From assembly GCA_947450365.1 (NCBI GenBank), contig CANFVE010000008.1, forward strand, positions 1 to 64,000: a stretch of DNA of 64,000 nt, in the 5' to 3' direction. This DNA comes from Cytophagaceae bacterium (lineage in GTDB: Bacteria > Bacteroidota > Bacteroidia > Cytophagales > Spirosomataceae). This document shows, piece after piece, positions 18,028 to 30,162 of the stretch. The notes under the pieces are model-generated. The model saw only the letters and a list, made by a program, of their open reading frames with translations. It was not told where the DNA came from and searched no databases. The position numbers and the translations under genes were made by a program. Numbering within the stretch: the stretch's first letter is position 1; every line of letters starts with the position of its first letter.

Positions 18028-18822
18028 ATGCAAGCATACCTAGACCTTCTTTGCCACATTAAAAACCAAGGCACTTTTAAATCCGACCGCACAGGAACGG
18101 GCACAACGAGTGTTTTTGGCTATCAAATGCGCTTCAACTTAGCTGAGGGATTCCCCTTAGTGACCACCAAAAAAACGCATTTGAAATCCATCATATATGA
18201 GTTATTGTGGTTTTTGAAGGGAGAAACGAACATCGCCTATTTGAAGGAAAACAATGTCAGCATTTGGGACGAATGGGCAAATGAGAACGGTGACTTAGGG
18301 CCCGTCTATGGGAAACAGTGGAGAACCTGGGAAGGACCTGATGGCCAGGTCATCGACCAAATCAAAGATGTGATTCATACGCTTAAAACGAATCCAGATT
18401 CCCGACGCATCATCGTGAGTGCCTGGAACGTAGCCGACTTGCCGAAAATGGCTTTGATGCCCTGTCACGCCTTTTTCCAATTTTATGTGGCCGACGGGAA
18501 ATTATCATGCCAATTATACCAGCGCTCCGCCGATGTATTTTTAGGTGTTCCATTCAACATCGCAAGTTATGCACTCCTAACCATGATGGTCGCGCAAGTG
18601 TGTGATTTAGGGCTGGGGGACTTTGTCTGGACCGGAGGAGATACGCATTTATATAGCAATCACATGGAACAAGTCGACTTGCAATTAAGCAGAACGCCTC
18701 GGCCATTGCCTACGATGAAAATAAATCCAAACGTAAAGGACATATTTGAATTTACGTACGAAGATTTCACGCTAGAAAATTATGACCCATATCCGGGCAT
18801 TAAAGCGCCTGTGGCTATTTAA
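18028..18822 (+). CDS. thyA: Thymidylate synthase
   Basis: A 264-residue enzyme that methylates dUMP to dTMP with methylene-tetrahydrofolate. The length equals the Escherichia coli protein. Motifs are [30 protein letters not shown] for phosphate binding, the catalytic Cys in [34 protein letters not shown] and GDTHLYSNH. The gene starts one base after osmC. Its TAA interlocks with the stop of convergent moxR (TTAA, 18819-18822). Confidence 0.97.
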
Positions 18823-19781
18823 TCTTGTACCAATCGGCGTATTAAATCCGCGGCACGAAGCCCTTGTGAATCGGCTTTATAATTCGGAATAATTCGATGT
18901 TGCAATACCGCCACAGCCATTTCCCGCACATCTTCGACATTCGGAGAATAACGGCCATGCATCAATGCATGGCATTTGGCAGCTAAAATCAAATTTTGAG
19001 AAGCCCTCGGACCTGCCCCCCAGGTTATGTATTCTTTGGCGATGTCTGAAGTGTTTTCGTTTCCGAGGCGGGTTTGTTGGACCCATAGCACCGCCGTTTC
19101 AACCACTAAATCGGAAACAGGTACACGCTTCACTAAGTCTTGGTACTCCAATAAGGTTTTTGCGTTTAAGATGGGTGCTTGAACCTCTAAAAGTTGGGAT
19201 TTTTCAGTCATCCGCACCACTTGGACTTCTTCTGAAAAGCTTGGATAATCCAACTGGATCATGAACAAAAACCGATCCAACTGCGCTTCTGGCAAGGGAT
19301 AGGTTCCTTCTTGTTCAATCGGGTTTTGGGTAGCCAAGACAAAAAAAGGTTTCGGCAATTCATAACTCGTTCCCGCGACGGAAACGGTTTCCTCTTGCAT
19401 CGCCTCTAAAAGGGCAGATTGGGTTTTGGGAGGAGTCCGGTTGATCTCGTCGGCCAAAATAAGATTCGCGAAAATCGGCCCCCGACTGAATTGAAAATTC
19501 CTTTCTTGGTCCAATAATTCCGTTCCTATAATATCGGAAGGCATTAAGTCTGGTGTAAATTGAATGCGTTTGTAGTCTAAATCCACAAGACCCGCTAAGG
19601 TCTGAACGAGCCGTGTTTTGGCCAAACCAGGTACACCCACTAACAAACAATGCCCCCCGGAGAACAAAGCATTTAAAAGCAAATCAATTGTCTTTTCTTG
19701 CCCCACCACACGCGAAGCAATCGCCTGTTTAAGACTTCGAATATCGTCAAAAAATGAGGTGGCTAAGCGTACGTCTTCCAT
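18819..19781 (-). CDS. MoxR family AAA+ ATPase
   Basis: A 320-residue ATPase with Walker A GVPGLAKT, Walker [23 protein letters not shown], and the sensor/C-terminal lid region [23 protein letters not shown] at 19781 is taken because it follows the stop of the parvulin gene directly; the longer frame overlaps that gene. MoxR proteins act as chaperones that insert cofactors or activate partner proteins, often with von Willebrand-domain proteins. Here the partners in the operon are two periplasmic prolyl isomerases, an arrangement common in Bacteroidota whose purpose is unclear. Confidence 0.92.
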
Positions 19782-19783
19782 GT

Positions 19784-21166
19784 TTATTGACCCGAGGGAC
19801 TGGCTTCCGGACCCTGAGTTCCTAGGGTATTGCAACTCTTGTATTCATCATCAATGAAAATAAATACATCTTCCTTCGCTTTTAAAAACCAATTTTCAAT
19901 GGCATCATTCTTTTTACGAGAAAGGGCGATGTTTCCAATTTTTTGATAATCATCCTTTAGATTTGCAAAATGCGGCGGATGTTTGGCTTTGAAATAAAGA
20001 ATTCGAACAGCACTCCGGCCATCCTCTGTCCGATAGGGAATCGGTGTAGAAATCGTTCCCACCTTCATCGAATCGATGGAGAAATACAAACCAGGTTCCA
20101 TGGTTCCATCAAATGGAATCCGATAACTACGCGTAGCTTGATCCATCAATAATCCGCCGGCATCTTGTGTCGCCTTATCTTGGGAGAAATCACGAGCCGC
20201 ACGATCAAACTTGACAGAATCCCGTTGGATTAAAATACGGATACTATCCAAATATTTCGTAGGCTCCGTTAAATCAAGTTTTTGATAATCTGGACGTAAT
20301 AAAATGTGACGTGCATGGTATTCTTGTCCACGAATCTCTAACAATTGAATCAAGTGAAAACCAAATTCACTTTCAACCACATCTGACATCATAGAAGGCT
20401 TCAATTTCAATGCTGCGGCCTCAAATGGCGCGACCATGGCTCCCCTTTTTGAAAAACCTAAATCCCCTCCTCGTTTTCCACTGCCTAAATCTTCGGAATA
20501 TAATTTGGCCAAATCTTCGAAATTTTCGCCTTTTTCGATGCGTCGACGGTAATCCAACAAACGACCAATTAATTCATCTTTTTGATTTTTATTTGGCTGT
20601 GCCAACCGAACAATATGACCTACCTCAACCTCCGCGGGCAAATAGGGCAAGGAATCTGTCGGGATTTTCTTAAAAAACTCCGCGACCTCTTTCGGGGTGA
20701 TGGTCACCGCATCCGTAATTTTATCTTGCATTTTACGGCCGGTTAATTGCTCTTTTAAGGATGACCTTAAATCCTCCTTCAAGGTAGCAATGGGCTTACC
20801 AAAGGCCTCTACAATATTCTTTGCAGAGCCATATTGCTGCTCCATTTGGTCCATTCGGGAATTTAATTCCATCTCGATTCGCTTGTCATCCACGATCACG
20901 GAATCGATTTCGGCTTTGGCTAACATCAATTTGTTGACCACCAAGCCTTCCAAAATTTGACAACGATTCGGTGCATTGGCTTGACCGCTGGCTAGCGATT
21001 GTTGGTACTGCGCCTCAATCTCCGATTTTAGAATGTAATGATTGTCGACTTTGGCAATAATTTTATCTAACAAGGATGATTTGGCCTCTTCTTGCGAAAA
21101 ACCCGCAAACGAAATCAATAAACCCAAAACACCCAACAAAAAACTTTTTAATTTCATATTCCTCAT
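19784..21166 (-). CDS. SurA-like periplasmic peptidylprolyl isomerase
   Basis: A 460-residue exported chaperone/isomerase. A signal peptide (MKLKSFLLGVLGLLISFAGFSQ) is preceded by three residues; an ATG at 21157 is a second possible start. A SurA-like N-terminal helical domain (LLDKIIAKVDNHYILKSEIE) precedes a good parvulin domain at about residues 180-280 (VEVGHIVRLAQP, FEDLAKLYSED, GKRGGDLGFSKRGAMV, VESEFGFHLIQLLE) and a second, more divergent one (YHARHILLRPD, ATQDAGGLL). It probably escorts outer-membrane proteins. The upstream parvulin gene ends three bases before it and MoxR follows after two. Confidence 0.88.
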   Translation of the reverse strand: MRNMKLKSFLLGVLGLLISFAGFSQEEAKSSLLDKIIAKVDNHYILKSEIEAQYQQSLASGQANAPNRCQILEGLVVNKLMLAKAEIDSVIVDDKRIEMELNSRMDQMEQQYGSAKNIVEAFGKPIATLKEDLRSSLKEQLTGRKMQDKITDAVTITPKEVAEFFKKIPTDSLPYLPAEVEVGHIVRLAQPNKNQKDELIGRLLDYRRRIEKGENFEDLAKLYSEDLGSGKRGGDLGFSKRGAMVAPFEAAALKLKPSMMSDVVESEFGFHLIQLLEIRGQEYHARHILLRPDYQKLDLTEPTKYLDSIRILIQRDSVKFDRAARDFSQDKATQDAGGLLMDQATRSYRIPFDGTMEPGLYFSIDSMKVGTISTPIPYRTEDGRSAVRILYFKAKHPPHFANLKDDYQKIGNIALSRKKNDAIENWFLKAKEDVFIFIDDEYKSCNTLGTQGPEASPSGQ

Positions 21167-21169
21167 AAA

Positions 21170-23431
21170 CTATTGCATTATTTTATTCAATTCTTCCTCG
21201 TTCCGAACGACTGGAAAACGCTCTTTTAATCGAATCAACCAATTTTTTTCTAATTCAACCTGTAAATCTCGAATGATCGAACTACGTGATTCTTCAAAAC
21301 TTTTCAAACGTGCTGGCACTACTTCCCTTACGTCCACAAATACGTGTCGGCCCTGTGCTTCAAAATTCTTTTTCCCAACTTCCCAGCTAAGACTGTCCAA
21401 GATCGCATTTTCTCCTCGTTTAAACAAACCTTCCGAAGCTTCTAAGCTCAACGGCTTGACTGAATTAAATCGCTTCACCACATCTTCCATTGAATGCGAA
21501 TAAAATTTAAAGCTAATCCGAGCATTTTTTGATTTATCCGTTTTCGAAGCAGGACGTAAATTTCCCTCCACCTTTTCAATGATCCGGGAGACACCTATCC
21601 CCTTTTTCGTTAAATAGGCGACAACTTTTGAAATCCGCGCTTGGGCTAAGGTATCCATTTCACTGGCATCCTGATGACCTGAAATCTCGACAATGAAATC
21701 CTTGTTTTTGGCTAATTGAATAAACAATTCTTGTAAATTTTTTGTCGAACCCTCGGGAAGCACTGATTGTCCTAAACCAAAAGTCAAATCCGGAAACCGC
21801 TTATTCATGGGATATGGAGGATTTTTCAACAATTCCATGGCATCCGCCAAGGTTTTGGGCGTATCCGCTGAAAGAACTTTCGCTTGCAGGCGACTTGGGA
21901 GGGTGAATTTCGCGGTATTGGCAGTGAAATAGGTTTGTTGACGCAAAGAATCCAAGGACTTTTCATACACCTCACGCTCCGTGATTTTGCTAAACAAACT
22001 ACCTTCATAAAATTCCTGCATCTGTTCTTTAAATGCAGGATATTTCGTTTCCAAATGCTTTTCTTCCGCTTGAATCGTGTTTAAATCAATAAATTCTTCT
22101 AACCAAAATGCTTCGGAAATCGTAGGCAAATAACCTAAGACTTTTAATTTTTTTCGTTGTTGTGCCACAATAAAGGCATAAAATTCTTTGATCAAAAATT
22201 GTGTCGACCCGATCGAAAACAAAGGCAATTGCAAATAAGCCTCATCGCCTATTCGATCCTGTGCGTATCGCTCAATTGCAATTTTCCGATTCACCTCATC
22301 GACCTTGACATTATTTTCCATCCGTACCCGTTTCATGAAGGACTGGCGAATAATCGCACTACGCTCACCATCCGTGAGGACCTTTTGACGTAAATATTCC
22401 GCCATTTCCTCATAGCTTAACAGCGGTTTTTTATCGAGTAATTTAAAAATTTGCCAACCTAAATTCGTCCGAATCGGTTCCGTCACATCTCCCAATCGCT
22501 GAATTCCAAATAACTTATCCTGCAATTCCTCTGACAAATCAGAAGAATAATACCAGCGACGCAATTCACCACCGCGACTCCTCGAATACGGATCCTCTGA
22601 ATAGTTTTTACATATCAATTCAAAAGGCTCTTCTCCCTTAGCCAAATATTTTTGAACTAAATCAATCTTATTTTTCGCCTCCACTTGGACCGAAGTAGGC
22701 GCATTCACCGTCGCGGAAATCAAAATATGGGCCAATCGAATTTTCCCTTGATTCGGACGGATCTCCAACACCTTAATTAAGTGATAGCCCGTTTCCGTTC
22801 GAACAATGTTTGAAACTTCTCCTTTTTCTAAGGCATAAACCGCATTTTCAAAGGCGTATTGGGTCTGTAAACTTGTAATATAACCAATTTGCCCGCCTTT
22901 AATCGCCGATAATTCATCCTCCGAAAACTTCTTCGCCGTGGCGGCAAAATCCTCTCCTGCTTGTAATTTCTTTTGAATATTCGTGATTTTCTGATAGGCA
23001 ATCAGAGTATCCGAAGGACTTGGATTCGCCGGTAAGCGTACCAAAATATGCGCCACCTGTTTCTCGAATTTCAACCGCTCATACGCCTCACGCACCAAAG
23101 CCTCCACTTTGACATTATCAATCAAATAGGGACTTGCTAATTCCTTTCGAAAACTTTGGTATTCATCCTGAAATCCGGGGGAAGTCGGTATTTGATCCGC
23201 TTCAGCCGCTAAGATTTTCAATTGATAGTCGATATAGGCCGACAAAAATTTCTGCTTATTATCCGACCGAATACTATCACTTTCCAATAAGCGTCGATAA
23301 TCCTTTTCAAAGACCTCTGCAGTAATTTTCTTTGGACCAATCTGCAAAGGGACAGGGCTTTGTGCCAGCAAGCCTGAAGCTCCAAGCATCCAAAAAAGAA
23401 AAACGAAAATACAATTTTTATTCTTGCCCAT
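21170..23431 (-). CDS. Double parvulin peptidylprolyl isomerase with internal OmpA-like domain
   Basis: A 753-residue exported protein. ATG at 23431 begins a signal peptide (KNCIFVFLFWMLGASGLLAQ); an upstream TTG is not needed. Two parvulin domains are clear: about residues 124-225 (VAHILVRLP, FAATAKKFSED, IKGGQIGYI, RTETGYHLIKVLEI) and 228-333 (LAHILISA, FELICKNYSEDP, SRGGELRRW, TNLGWQIFKLLD). About residues 553-645 look like an OmpA-type peptidoglycan-binding fold (FGLGQSVLPEGSTKNLQELF, FIVEISGHQDASEMDTLAQARISKV, then KNARISFKF). A short C-terminal part with EVGKKNFEAQGRHVFVDVREVV resembles a further parvulin-associated segment. It heads the operon with the SurA-like gene and MoxR. Confidence 0.85.
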   Translation of the reverse strand: MGKNKNCIFVFLFWMLGASGLLAQSPVPLQIGPKKITAEVFEKDYRRLLESDSIRSDNKQKFLSAYIDYQLKILAAEADQIPTSPGFQDEYQSFRKELASPYLIDNVKVEALVREAYERLKFEKQVAHILVRLPANPSPSDTLIAYQKITNIQKKLQAGEDFAATAKKFSEDELSAIKGGQIGYITSLQTQYAFENAVYALEKGEVSNIVRTETGYHLIKVLEIRPNQGKIRLAHILISATVNAPTSVQVEAKNKIDLVQKYLAKGEEPFELICKNYSEDPYSRSRGGELRRWYYSSDLSEELQDKLFGIQRLGDVTEPIRTNLGWQIFKLLDKKPLLSYEEMAEYLRQKVLTDGERSAIIRQSFMKRVRMENNVKVDEVNRKIAIERYAQDRIGDEAYLQLPLFSIGSTQFLIKEFYAFIVAQQRKKLKVLGYLPTISEAFWLEEFIDLNTIQAEEKHLETKYPAFKEQMQEFYEGSLFSKITEREVYEKSLDSLRQQTYFTANTAKFTLPSRLQAKVLSADTPKTLADAMELLKNPPYPMNKRFPDLTFGLGQSVLPEGSTKNLQELFIQLAKNKDFIVEISGHQDASEMDTLAQARISKVVAYLTKKGIGVSRIIEKVEGNLRPASKTDKSKNARISFKFYSHSMEDVVKRFNSVKPLSLEASEGLFKRGENAILDSLSWEVGKKNFEAQGRHVFVDVREVVPARLKSFEESRSSIIRDLQVELEKNWLIRLKERFPVVRNEEELNKIMQ

Positions 23432-23440
23432 ATAATCCGT

Positions 23441-23448
23441 CAAAATTA
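23441..23448 (-). promoter_or_regulatory. -7 element TAATTTTG of the parvulin-moxR operon
   Basis: An exact TAnnTTTG on the minus strand lies nine bases before the ATG at 23431, so the predicted leader is only a few bases long. No convincing -33 TTTG is present. Confidence 0.4.
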
Positions 23449-28914: not shown

Positions 28915-30162
28915 ATGCTTGGATTATGGCTTTTCCCTTTCCTATCGATTTTTTCTGCTGGGGATAGCTTGACGATTTCTTCCGTTCCGATTAAGGAAGT
29001 CAATGTCTACCGAACCCAATATTTTCCGATTTATTCAGCCGCCCGCCAAGAATTATTCCTAACCGTTCGCAAAGGCACGAAATCCGATGAAGAAATTTTC
29101 GTATCCGCATGGAATGGCAAGCAATTTGAAATCCCTCGGCCCATCGAGGAATTAAATCAAGAAAACAATGAAGGTACACCTACACTTTCCAAGGATGGAC
29201 TTCATTTAATTTTCTCGGGTTGTGATTATCCAAATTCCTTCGGAGGTTGTGATTTGTACGAATGTACGTGGGTCGATGGTTCCTGGACCCGCCCAAAAAA
29301 CTTGGGCTTTCTAGTGAATTCGCATGATTGGGAGGGTCAGCCCCAACTGAACTCGGATGGAAGCAAATTATTCTTTTCCTCGGACCGACCTGGAGGCGAA
29401 GGAAAACGCGATATCTGGTTGACCGAACGAGGAACCGATGGAAAATGGGGAATTCCGAAAAATTTGGGCAAAAAAATCAACAGTTCGGAGGATGAACAAG
29501 GCCCCTATTACATGGATGAGCGGGCTATTTTAGTATTTTCAACGAATCAAAAAGGTGGAAAAGGGGGTTTAGATTTTCATCAAAGTCTTTGGGACGGAAA
29601 AATTTGGTCAGAATCAGTGGCCATTAAAGAAATCAATAGCACTTCAAATGACGCTGGATTTTCAGAAGGAATCCATGAAAACCAATATTACATTTCCAGA
29701 AAGGTGAATGATTCGATTCAGGATATTCAGATACAATCCGTTGAAATCCCAGAATTTTGTTGGCTTAAAAAACCCGTAGACCTACCCCCACCTATCCTCG
29801 TCGCTAAACCAGCCCCTATCGAATTTCAAAAGTTACATTTTGAAGATATTCAATTTGAAAATAATAAGTCAGACCTGCCTTTTGTGACACCTGCCTGTCT
29901 ACTGGATTTAGTTTCCTATTTATTTCAAAATCCAACCAAATCCATTGAGATTCATGGACATACCGATGAAGTGGGAAATGCACAGTCCAATTTATCGCTT
30001 TCGGACAGAAGGGCCAATTCGGTTAAAAAATACTTAATGGACCAAGGAATTGCGGGGGAACGAATTAAAACAATTGCTTTTGGGAATAGTAAACCAAAAA
30101 TAAAAGCAAAAACAGCCGAGGCGCGAAAAATTAATCGTCGGATCGAAATTATTTTACCCTAA
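28915..30162 (+). CDS. PD40 beta-propeller OmpA family protein
   Basis: A 415-residue exported protein. It begins with a signal peptide (LGLWLFPFLSIFSAGDS). About residues 30-280 contain repeated PD40/WD40-like blades (EGTPTLSKDGLHLIFSG, EGQPQLNSDGSKLFFSS, DEQGPYYMDERAILVFSTN). The C-terminal 105 residues form an OmpA peptidoglycan-binding domain (IEIHGHTDEVGNAQSNLSLS, DRRANSVKKYLMDQGIAGERI, ARKINRRIEIIL). Such proteins attach to peptidoglycan from the periplasm; some belong to type IX secretion or gliding machinery, but nothing here links this one to it. Its 3' end overlaps convergent rlpA by 14 bases. Confidence 0.88.
   Translation: MLGLWLFPFLSIFSAGDSLTISSVPIKEVNVYRTQYFPIYSAARQELFLTVRKGTKSDEEIFVSAWNGKQFEIPRPIEELNQENNEGTPTLSKDGLHLIFSGCDYPNSFGGCDLYECTWVDGSWTRPKNLGFLVNSHDWEGQPQLNSDGSKLFFSSDRPGGEGKRDIWLTERGTDGKWGIPKNLGKKINSSEDEQGPYYMDERAILVFSTNQKGGKGGLDFHQSLWDGKIWSESVAIKEINSTSNDAGFSEGIHENQYYISRKVNDSIQDIQIQSVEIPEFCWLKKPVDLPPPILVAKPAPIEFQKLHFEDIQFENNKSDLPFVTPACLLDLVSYLFQNPTKSIEIHGHTDEVGNAQSNLSLSDRRANSVKKYLMDQGIAGERIKTIAFGNSKPKIKAKTAEARKINRRIEIILP

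Follow-up and report, generated by a model that had tools for sequence, protein, structure and literature searches.

Parvulin chaperones of the SurA type escort unfolded proteins bound for the outer membrane. In Bacteroidota, three isomerases or chaperones, BamJ, BamK, and SurA Bt3848, are reported to co-purify with the machinery that assembles outer-membrane proteins, and the protein studied here may be compared with them in general type. BamJ and BamK differ from it in being described as surface lipoproteins, with BamJ of the FKBP type. Peptidoglycan-binding OmpA domains are described as carrying the motif TD(x)7NxxLSxxRA (PMC5104382), and in PorE diaminopimelate, DAP, is bound through the side chains of three residues, Asp576, Asn584, and Arg591 (PMC7192894). 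The Tp0624 protein of Treponema pallidum has a divergent OmpA domain in which the Arg is kept and the Asp lost, and for which DAP binding could not be demonstrated (PMC5104382).

This analysis focused on a long isomerase gene of a freshwater Cytophagales bacterium of the genus Aquirufa, located in the window, by which is meant the whole stretch of 64,000 nucleotides that was analysed. Its product resembles SurA, PpiC, and PrsA in being secreted, in having two clear parvulin domains, recognised by fold and sequence, and in adjoining another SurA-like gene, but differs from them in having no SurA_N match (none at E ≤ 1 in a Pfam search of the long isomerase), in a third, degenerate parvulin with an OmpA insertion, and in the replacement of the second histidine of parvulin 2 by Gln in the Aquirufa clade. 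Among the titles and abstract openings listed in literature searches, papers on DAP binding included, none dealt with a parvulin-OmpA fusion; the components are known singly, and the nested combination, its spread, and its remodelled site figured in none of these titles and openings.

The long isomerase and its parvulin domains

The gene lies on the minus strand, as do all of its features given below, at positions 21170-23443, and was delimited by its open reading frame, Pfam matches, and full-length relatives. It specifies a secreted PpiC/SurA-type isomerase/chaperone of 757 residues from the TTG at 23443, or of 753 from the ATG at 23431. Residues are numbered here in the 757-residue frame, where the ATG is codon 5; the original prediction counted from the ATG. 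The gene is also carried by genome G018, of the same genus, and by Aquirufa aurantiipilula. The signal peptide (about residues 5-27, 23363-23431) has a probable cleavage point at ...GLLA/QSP and carries no lipobox. The lipobox pattern was matched neither by the window protein nor by any of the 33 members of the Aquirufa clade, defined as those of the 131 insert-bearing proteins described below that are each more than 52% identical to the window protein, so that a soluble periplasmic protein is to be expected; many relatives do match the pattern.

The Rotamase profile of Pfam exceeded its cut-off in two stretches, with 146.6 bits for the whole protein. Parvulin domain 1 (about residues 126-229, 22757-23068) contains the best Rotamase stretch, 132-225, and gave fold matches such as 3gpk over 122-234. 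Parvulin domain 2 (about residues 234-339, 22427-22744) corresponds to the second stretch, and is supported by a SurA model over 125-340, a match to PrsA 6vj6 over 264-360, and the AlphaFold2 model. By analogy with Pin1, each parvulin domain would have two active-site histidines. Both are present in parvulin 1 (H132 and H221), while parvulin 2 has H239 and a Gln at position 331 (22451-22453). This Gln was found in exactly the 33 members of the Aquirufa clade, in which parvulin 2 is the best-conserved domain (0.820), and His132 of parvulin 1 is replaced by Gln in 27 of the 131 family members, the window protein not being among them. Catalysis may be fading while chaperone function stays.

The inserted domain and its host region

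An OmpA-like domain within the isomerase had been predicted from the sequence, and both the domain and its setting were borne out, with the open reading frame, the parvulins, and the OmpA stretch all at the expected places. The PF00691 profile matched residues 555-639 of the window protein with 30.7 bits (cut-off 27.2, E 4.2e-7), a fragment comprising residues 512-712 scored 33.6 bits, and all 55 of the 55 homologous fragments of alignment A4 matched the profile at E ≤ 1. A full AlphaFold2 model, built from 56 aligned sequences, had a mean pLDDT of 89.0 and a pTM of 0.62. In structural comparisons with this model, residues 547-649 (21497-21805) matched Acinetobacter baumannii Pal (4g4w, Z 16.0, rmsd 1.6 over 100 residues), OmpA with a stem peptide (3td5, Z 15.0, rmsd 2.0 over 106), and the C-domain of PorE (6top, Z 14.5, rmsd 2.1 over 105), so that the likeness in predicted fold extends over 100-106 residues. 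A separate model of 512-712 (pLDDT 92.3, pTM 0.79) agreed (4g4w, Z 16.4, rmsd 1.6 over 100), and a Foldseek search with it placed the PorE C-domain, 6top, on top (E 1e-7). By both models, then, residues 547-649 adopt a predicted OmpA/Pal fold, as had been anticipated. The span first proposed, residues 553-645 (557-649 in the present numbering) at 21490-21780 (residues 555-652), had the place right, but the fold starts earlier, at about residue 547 (21805).

Alignment with relatives that lack it showed the domain to be inserted at a single site, where it adds about 105 residues. In the AlphaFold2 model, the pieces on either side succeed one another as in a parvulin fold, with a first half formed by a strand (518-526) and a helix (529-539) at 21827-21892, and a second half formed by a helix (652-662) and strands (667-675, 690-696, and 699-709) at 21317-21490. 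The OmpA domain is thus nested in a third parvulin of degenerate sequence, where the model places it between the first helix and the second. The original description of a double parvulin understated the protein, which has this further parvulin, the one that holds the insert, as its C-terminal region.

The placement within a third parvulin follows from the model together with outgroup evidence. Of nine relatives belonging to other classes of the phylum, seven have their best PF13145 stretch in the matching region (L236 573-687, L240 564-679, L239 543-708, L241 511-684, L238 633-748, L235 948-1062, and L237 665-755; it was not in that region in L234 and L242). This outgroup region aligns with the C-terminal part of the window protein, and profile comparison linked it both to the C-terminal domain of the class (98.4-98.5% probability) and to parvulins 1 and 2 (88.4% and 91.9%). 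None of the nine outgroup proteins had an OmpA match at E ≤ 0.001. The third parvulin is convincing only by way of these outgroup proteins; within the class it is too degenerate for recognition from sequence. When built from sequences of its own family, its profile was not significantly similar to those of parvulins 1 and 2 and reached an E of 0.15 at best against PrsA; no Pfam parvulin match was found in this region among the Pfam families listed (25 of 27) for 23 members, and parvulins were not among the matches listed in the fold search with 512-712, which are filled by the OmpA domain.

Distribution of the insert and residues of the pocket

Homologues were gathered as best matches, not as a random draw. 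Restricting the 213 extracted proteins to non-identical ones with a minimum length of 600 residues left 177, comprising 131 with the insert, 45 without, and one (L076, with 41 residues at the insertion site) that was set aside; L229, L232, and L233 were added later and stand outside the counts of 131 and 45. Inspection of loci found the insert in 14 of 18 Cytophagales families (f1, f2, f4, f5, f7, f9, f10, f12, f14, f15, f80, f81, f82, and f84). It was absent from the other four, namely f16 (all seven loci inspected: L110, L115, L117, L123, L125, L232, and L233), f3 (L040), f11 (L043), and f79 (L119 and L122). The window protein was matched at E ≤ 1e-30 in 354 of 390 genomes of the order, and the best-scoring matches listed span the insert. 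A search for the same architecture in other genomes had been suggested, and the parvulin-OmpA layout proved common to many families of the order and no oddity of one genome. The architecture had been called unusual for PpiC/SurA proteins, which is true at large, in that G063 is the sole genome outside the order with a match spanning the domain among the matches listed, but it is not special to this genome.

Among class members outside the order that could be classified at the site, 36 of 37 lacked the insert, the exception being G063, and no other genome from outside the order matched across the insert among the matches listed, in overlapping sets of 197, 296, and 395 genomes that were each partly of the order. 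The protein of G063, which belongs to another order (L229:14-1600), has the same insertion, with the exact canonical peptidoglycan motif and an OmpA score of 72.2 bits. A strict restriction to Cytophagales is overturned by this protein, and its canonical motif suggests a wall-binding start. The gene may be a mis-binned Cytophagales contig, as it lies at a contig end in a genome with a listed contamination of 2%, is nearest by path to Cytophagales rows, and comes from the sole genome of its order in the sample; against this, the tree groups G063 with rows outside Cytophagales (88% support, not starred). The insertion in G063 may also be of independent origin, though at an identical site. Trees were reconstructed from the protein without the insert, using sets thinned to 86 and 77 rows (four long branches, L111, L123, L125, and L130, were left out of the second). 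The presence/absence label required six changes on the 86-row tree, two of them forced by well-supported branches, and five on the 77-row tree that included G063. This pattern fits, but does not prove, a single gain with several losses, and the insertion probably dates to the base of Cytophagales or before.

Like OmpA_C/Pal domains, the window protein has Phe555, Asp592, Arg603, and an Asn640/Arg642 end; it is unlike them in that its domain is inserted in another domain, the stretch from Asp to Arg is four residues shorter, the pocket Asn is gone, and a family-specific Glu is present. Asp592 (21668-21670) and Arg603 (21635-21637) are the equivalents by alignment of the canonical DAP-binding Asp and Arg, and Glu595 (21659-21661) is the family-specific residue. 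Arg603 was found in 131 of the 131 non-identical proteins with the insert, Glu595 in 128, and Asp592 in 100; after thinning at 70% identity the corresponding values were 64, 61, and 38 of 64. No columns of the region 541-652 are better conserved than those of Arg603 and Glu595, with Leu611 next, even though the insert has the lowest conservation of the eight regions compared (mean identity 0.264, 81 representatives). Within the Aquirufa clade, F555, G589, E595, D597, L599, R603, N640, and R642 are present in 33/33 members, and Asp592 in 31/33. Elsewhere Asp592 is variable, at least nine changes being required across the 47 insert-bearing tips sampled on a tree; it is lost in the sampled f12 members, and its position is occupied by Lys or Arg in L044, L048, and L112, where the Arg and Glu are still kept. 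A correlation between lipid anchoring and retention of the Asp was set aside because the lipobox pattern misses clear cases and the rows share kinship, a limit that applies to the crude counts obtained (without a lipobox match, 60 with Asp and 10 without; with a match, 40 and 21).

The motif of peptidoglycan-binding domains does not fit the window protein, in which the Asp and Arg are present at a spacing of 12 instead of 16 and the Asn is gone. The 12-residue stretch was found in 111 of the 131 members, the window protein included, and a deficit of four residues between Asp and Arg means that the Asn-bearing loop has been deleted. Of the two DAP-binding residues whose conservation had been put forward as a check, D592 and R603 are indeed present in the window protein, but across the family the Asp varies, and the spacing is short. 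A loosened pattern, D(x)7Nxx[LIVM][SAG]xxR, was matched by one of the 131 (L211, from Adhaeribacter) and by G063; several Hymenobacteraceae have longer loops, and three Pontibacter proteins with longer loops keep GHTD and the NRR end. The genome's six other OmpA domains above the Pfam cut-off served as a control; in every one the Asp, an Asn, and the Arg are retained, five with canonical spacing and one (L003) with a longer loop, so the divergence is peculiar to the long isomerase. An eighth PF00691 match of the genome, below the cut-off, kept none of the pattern. The near-invariance of Arg603 and Glu595, with the loss of the Asn loop, indicates a site that is constrained but remodelled. In its OmpA fold, retained Arg, and otherwise altered DAP site, the window protein resembles Tp0624 as described; in that description, however, the Tp0624 domain is C-terminal and un-nested, with no isomerase domain mentioned, and the Asp is retained in 100 of the 131 members of the present family.

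A second OmpA protein in the window, of 415 residues (28915-30162), carries one of these six domains; it has repeats that by eye appear propeller-like, followed by a canonical OmpA domain, an arrangement reminiscent of PorE.

Possible roles and neighbouring genes

The reading that we tentatively favour, with a little less than even confidence, is that of a large PpiC/SurA-type periplasmic chaperone-isomerase, widespread in Bacteroidia, that gained an OmpA/Pal domain in its degenerate third parvulin and docks on the wall through a remodelled pocket. By homology to SurA, its parvulin and helical parts would bind unfolded outer-membrane or secreted proteins, and the OmpA module would serve as a cell-wall docking point for a soluble chaperone, near the assembly machinery. 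Arg603, Asp592, and the family-specific Glu595 would replace the usual Asp-Asn-Arg trio, the part given to Glu595 being conjectural. Wall binding by the module is plausible from its residues: the canonical relative in G063, the invariant Arg, and the constrained Asp and Glu all favour it. The loss of the Asn loop, the variable Asp, and the precedent of Tp0624 count against it, and the peptidoglycan holding that was originally proposed is not supported in that form.

Almost as likely as wall docking is that the OmpA-fold domain works off the wall, as a structural or protein-docking module for a client, BamA, or the SurA-like partner, with Arg603 and Glu595 paired in an internal salt bridge or engaged in contact with a protein. 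Besides the Tp0624 precedent, which speaks for it, this would account for a family in which the Asn loop has been shortened away in 111 of 131 members and the Asp is absent in 31, while Arg and Glu persist even where the Asp has become Lys or Arg. It sits poorly with the fully canonical G063, with the three longer-looped Pontibacter proteins that keep GHTD and the NRR end, and with an Aquirufa clade in which the Asp (31/33), N640, and R642 (both 33/33) are kept beyond the needs of a pure scaffold. An old, tolerated, and decaying insert, carried as a neutral passenger with no function of its own, is improbable: it would agree with the lowest conservation of the eight regions and with the absence from four inspected Cytophagales families, in which the insert is evidently dispensable, but not with the retention of Arg603 in 131/131 and Glu595 in 128/131, the high-confidence predicted fold, and the presence in 14 of 18 families. 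That the OmpA-like stretch is a chance similarity or an artefact of the gene model, including a frameshift, can be practically dismissed. The Pfam score of the window protein exceeds the cut-off by only 3.5 bits, yet it does exceed it, open frames of the same layout occur in many genomes, the fold matches reach a Z of about 16, the fragments of A4 match the profile, and the copy in G063 is canonical at 72.2 bits.

If wall docking is true, one bacterial order has fixed a SurA-like chaperone to peptidoglycan, which would bear on the passage of unfolded outer-membrane proteins through the wall. In a bolder form of this reading, and a distinctly speculative one, a parvulin took up an ancient wall-binding domain at or before the base of Cytophagales, and the DAP pocket of that domain was then rebuilt around the nearly invariant Glu-Arg pair; the result would be a new recognition of the wall, or of a wall precursor, by a soluble SurA-like chaperone that rides on the wall, below the outer membrane, with no lipid anchor. 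If there is no docking, the family offers a natural series of changes at an OmpA site, from the canonical G063 through the longer-looped Pontibacter and the remodelled Aquirufa proteins to the Asp-less f12. In either case, the automatic step from OmpA family to peptidoglycan binding is untrustworthy for these proteins.

The next gene downstream (19784-21166, minus strand) was identified by Pfam as a second, shorter SurA-like isomerase of 460 residues, its SurA_N score of 29.8 bits being slightly below the cut-off of 30.8. A long isomerase followed by a SurA-like gene was found in 57 of the 65 loci with room, and the gap between the two exceeded 500 bases in just 6 of the 57. In some other families the long and the short isomerase are separated by a gene of about 300 codons (L042:3778-4665 and L043:3863-4783), which is absent from the window. 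Directly after the SurA-like gene lies a gene for a MoxR-type AAA ATPase (18819-19835), and a MoxR gene occupies this place in 21 of the same 65 loci.
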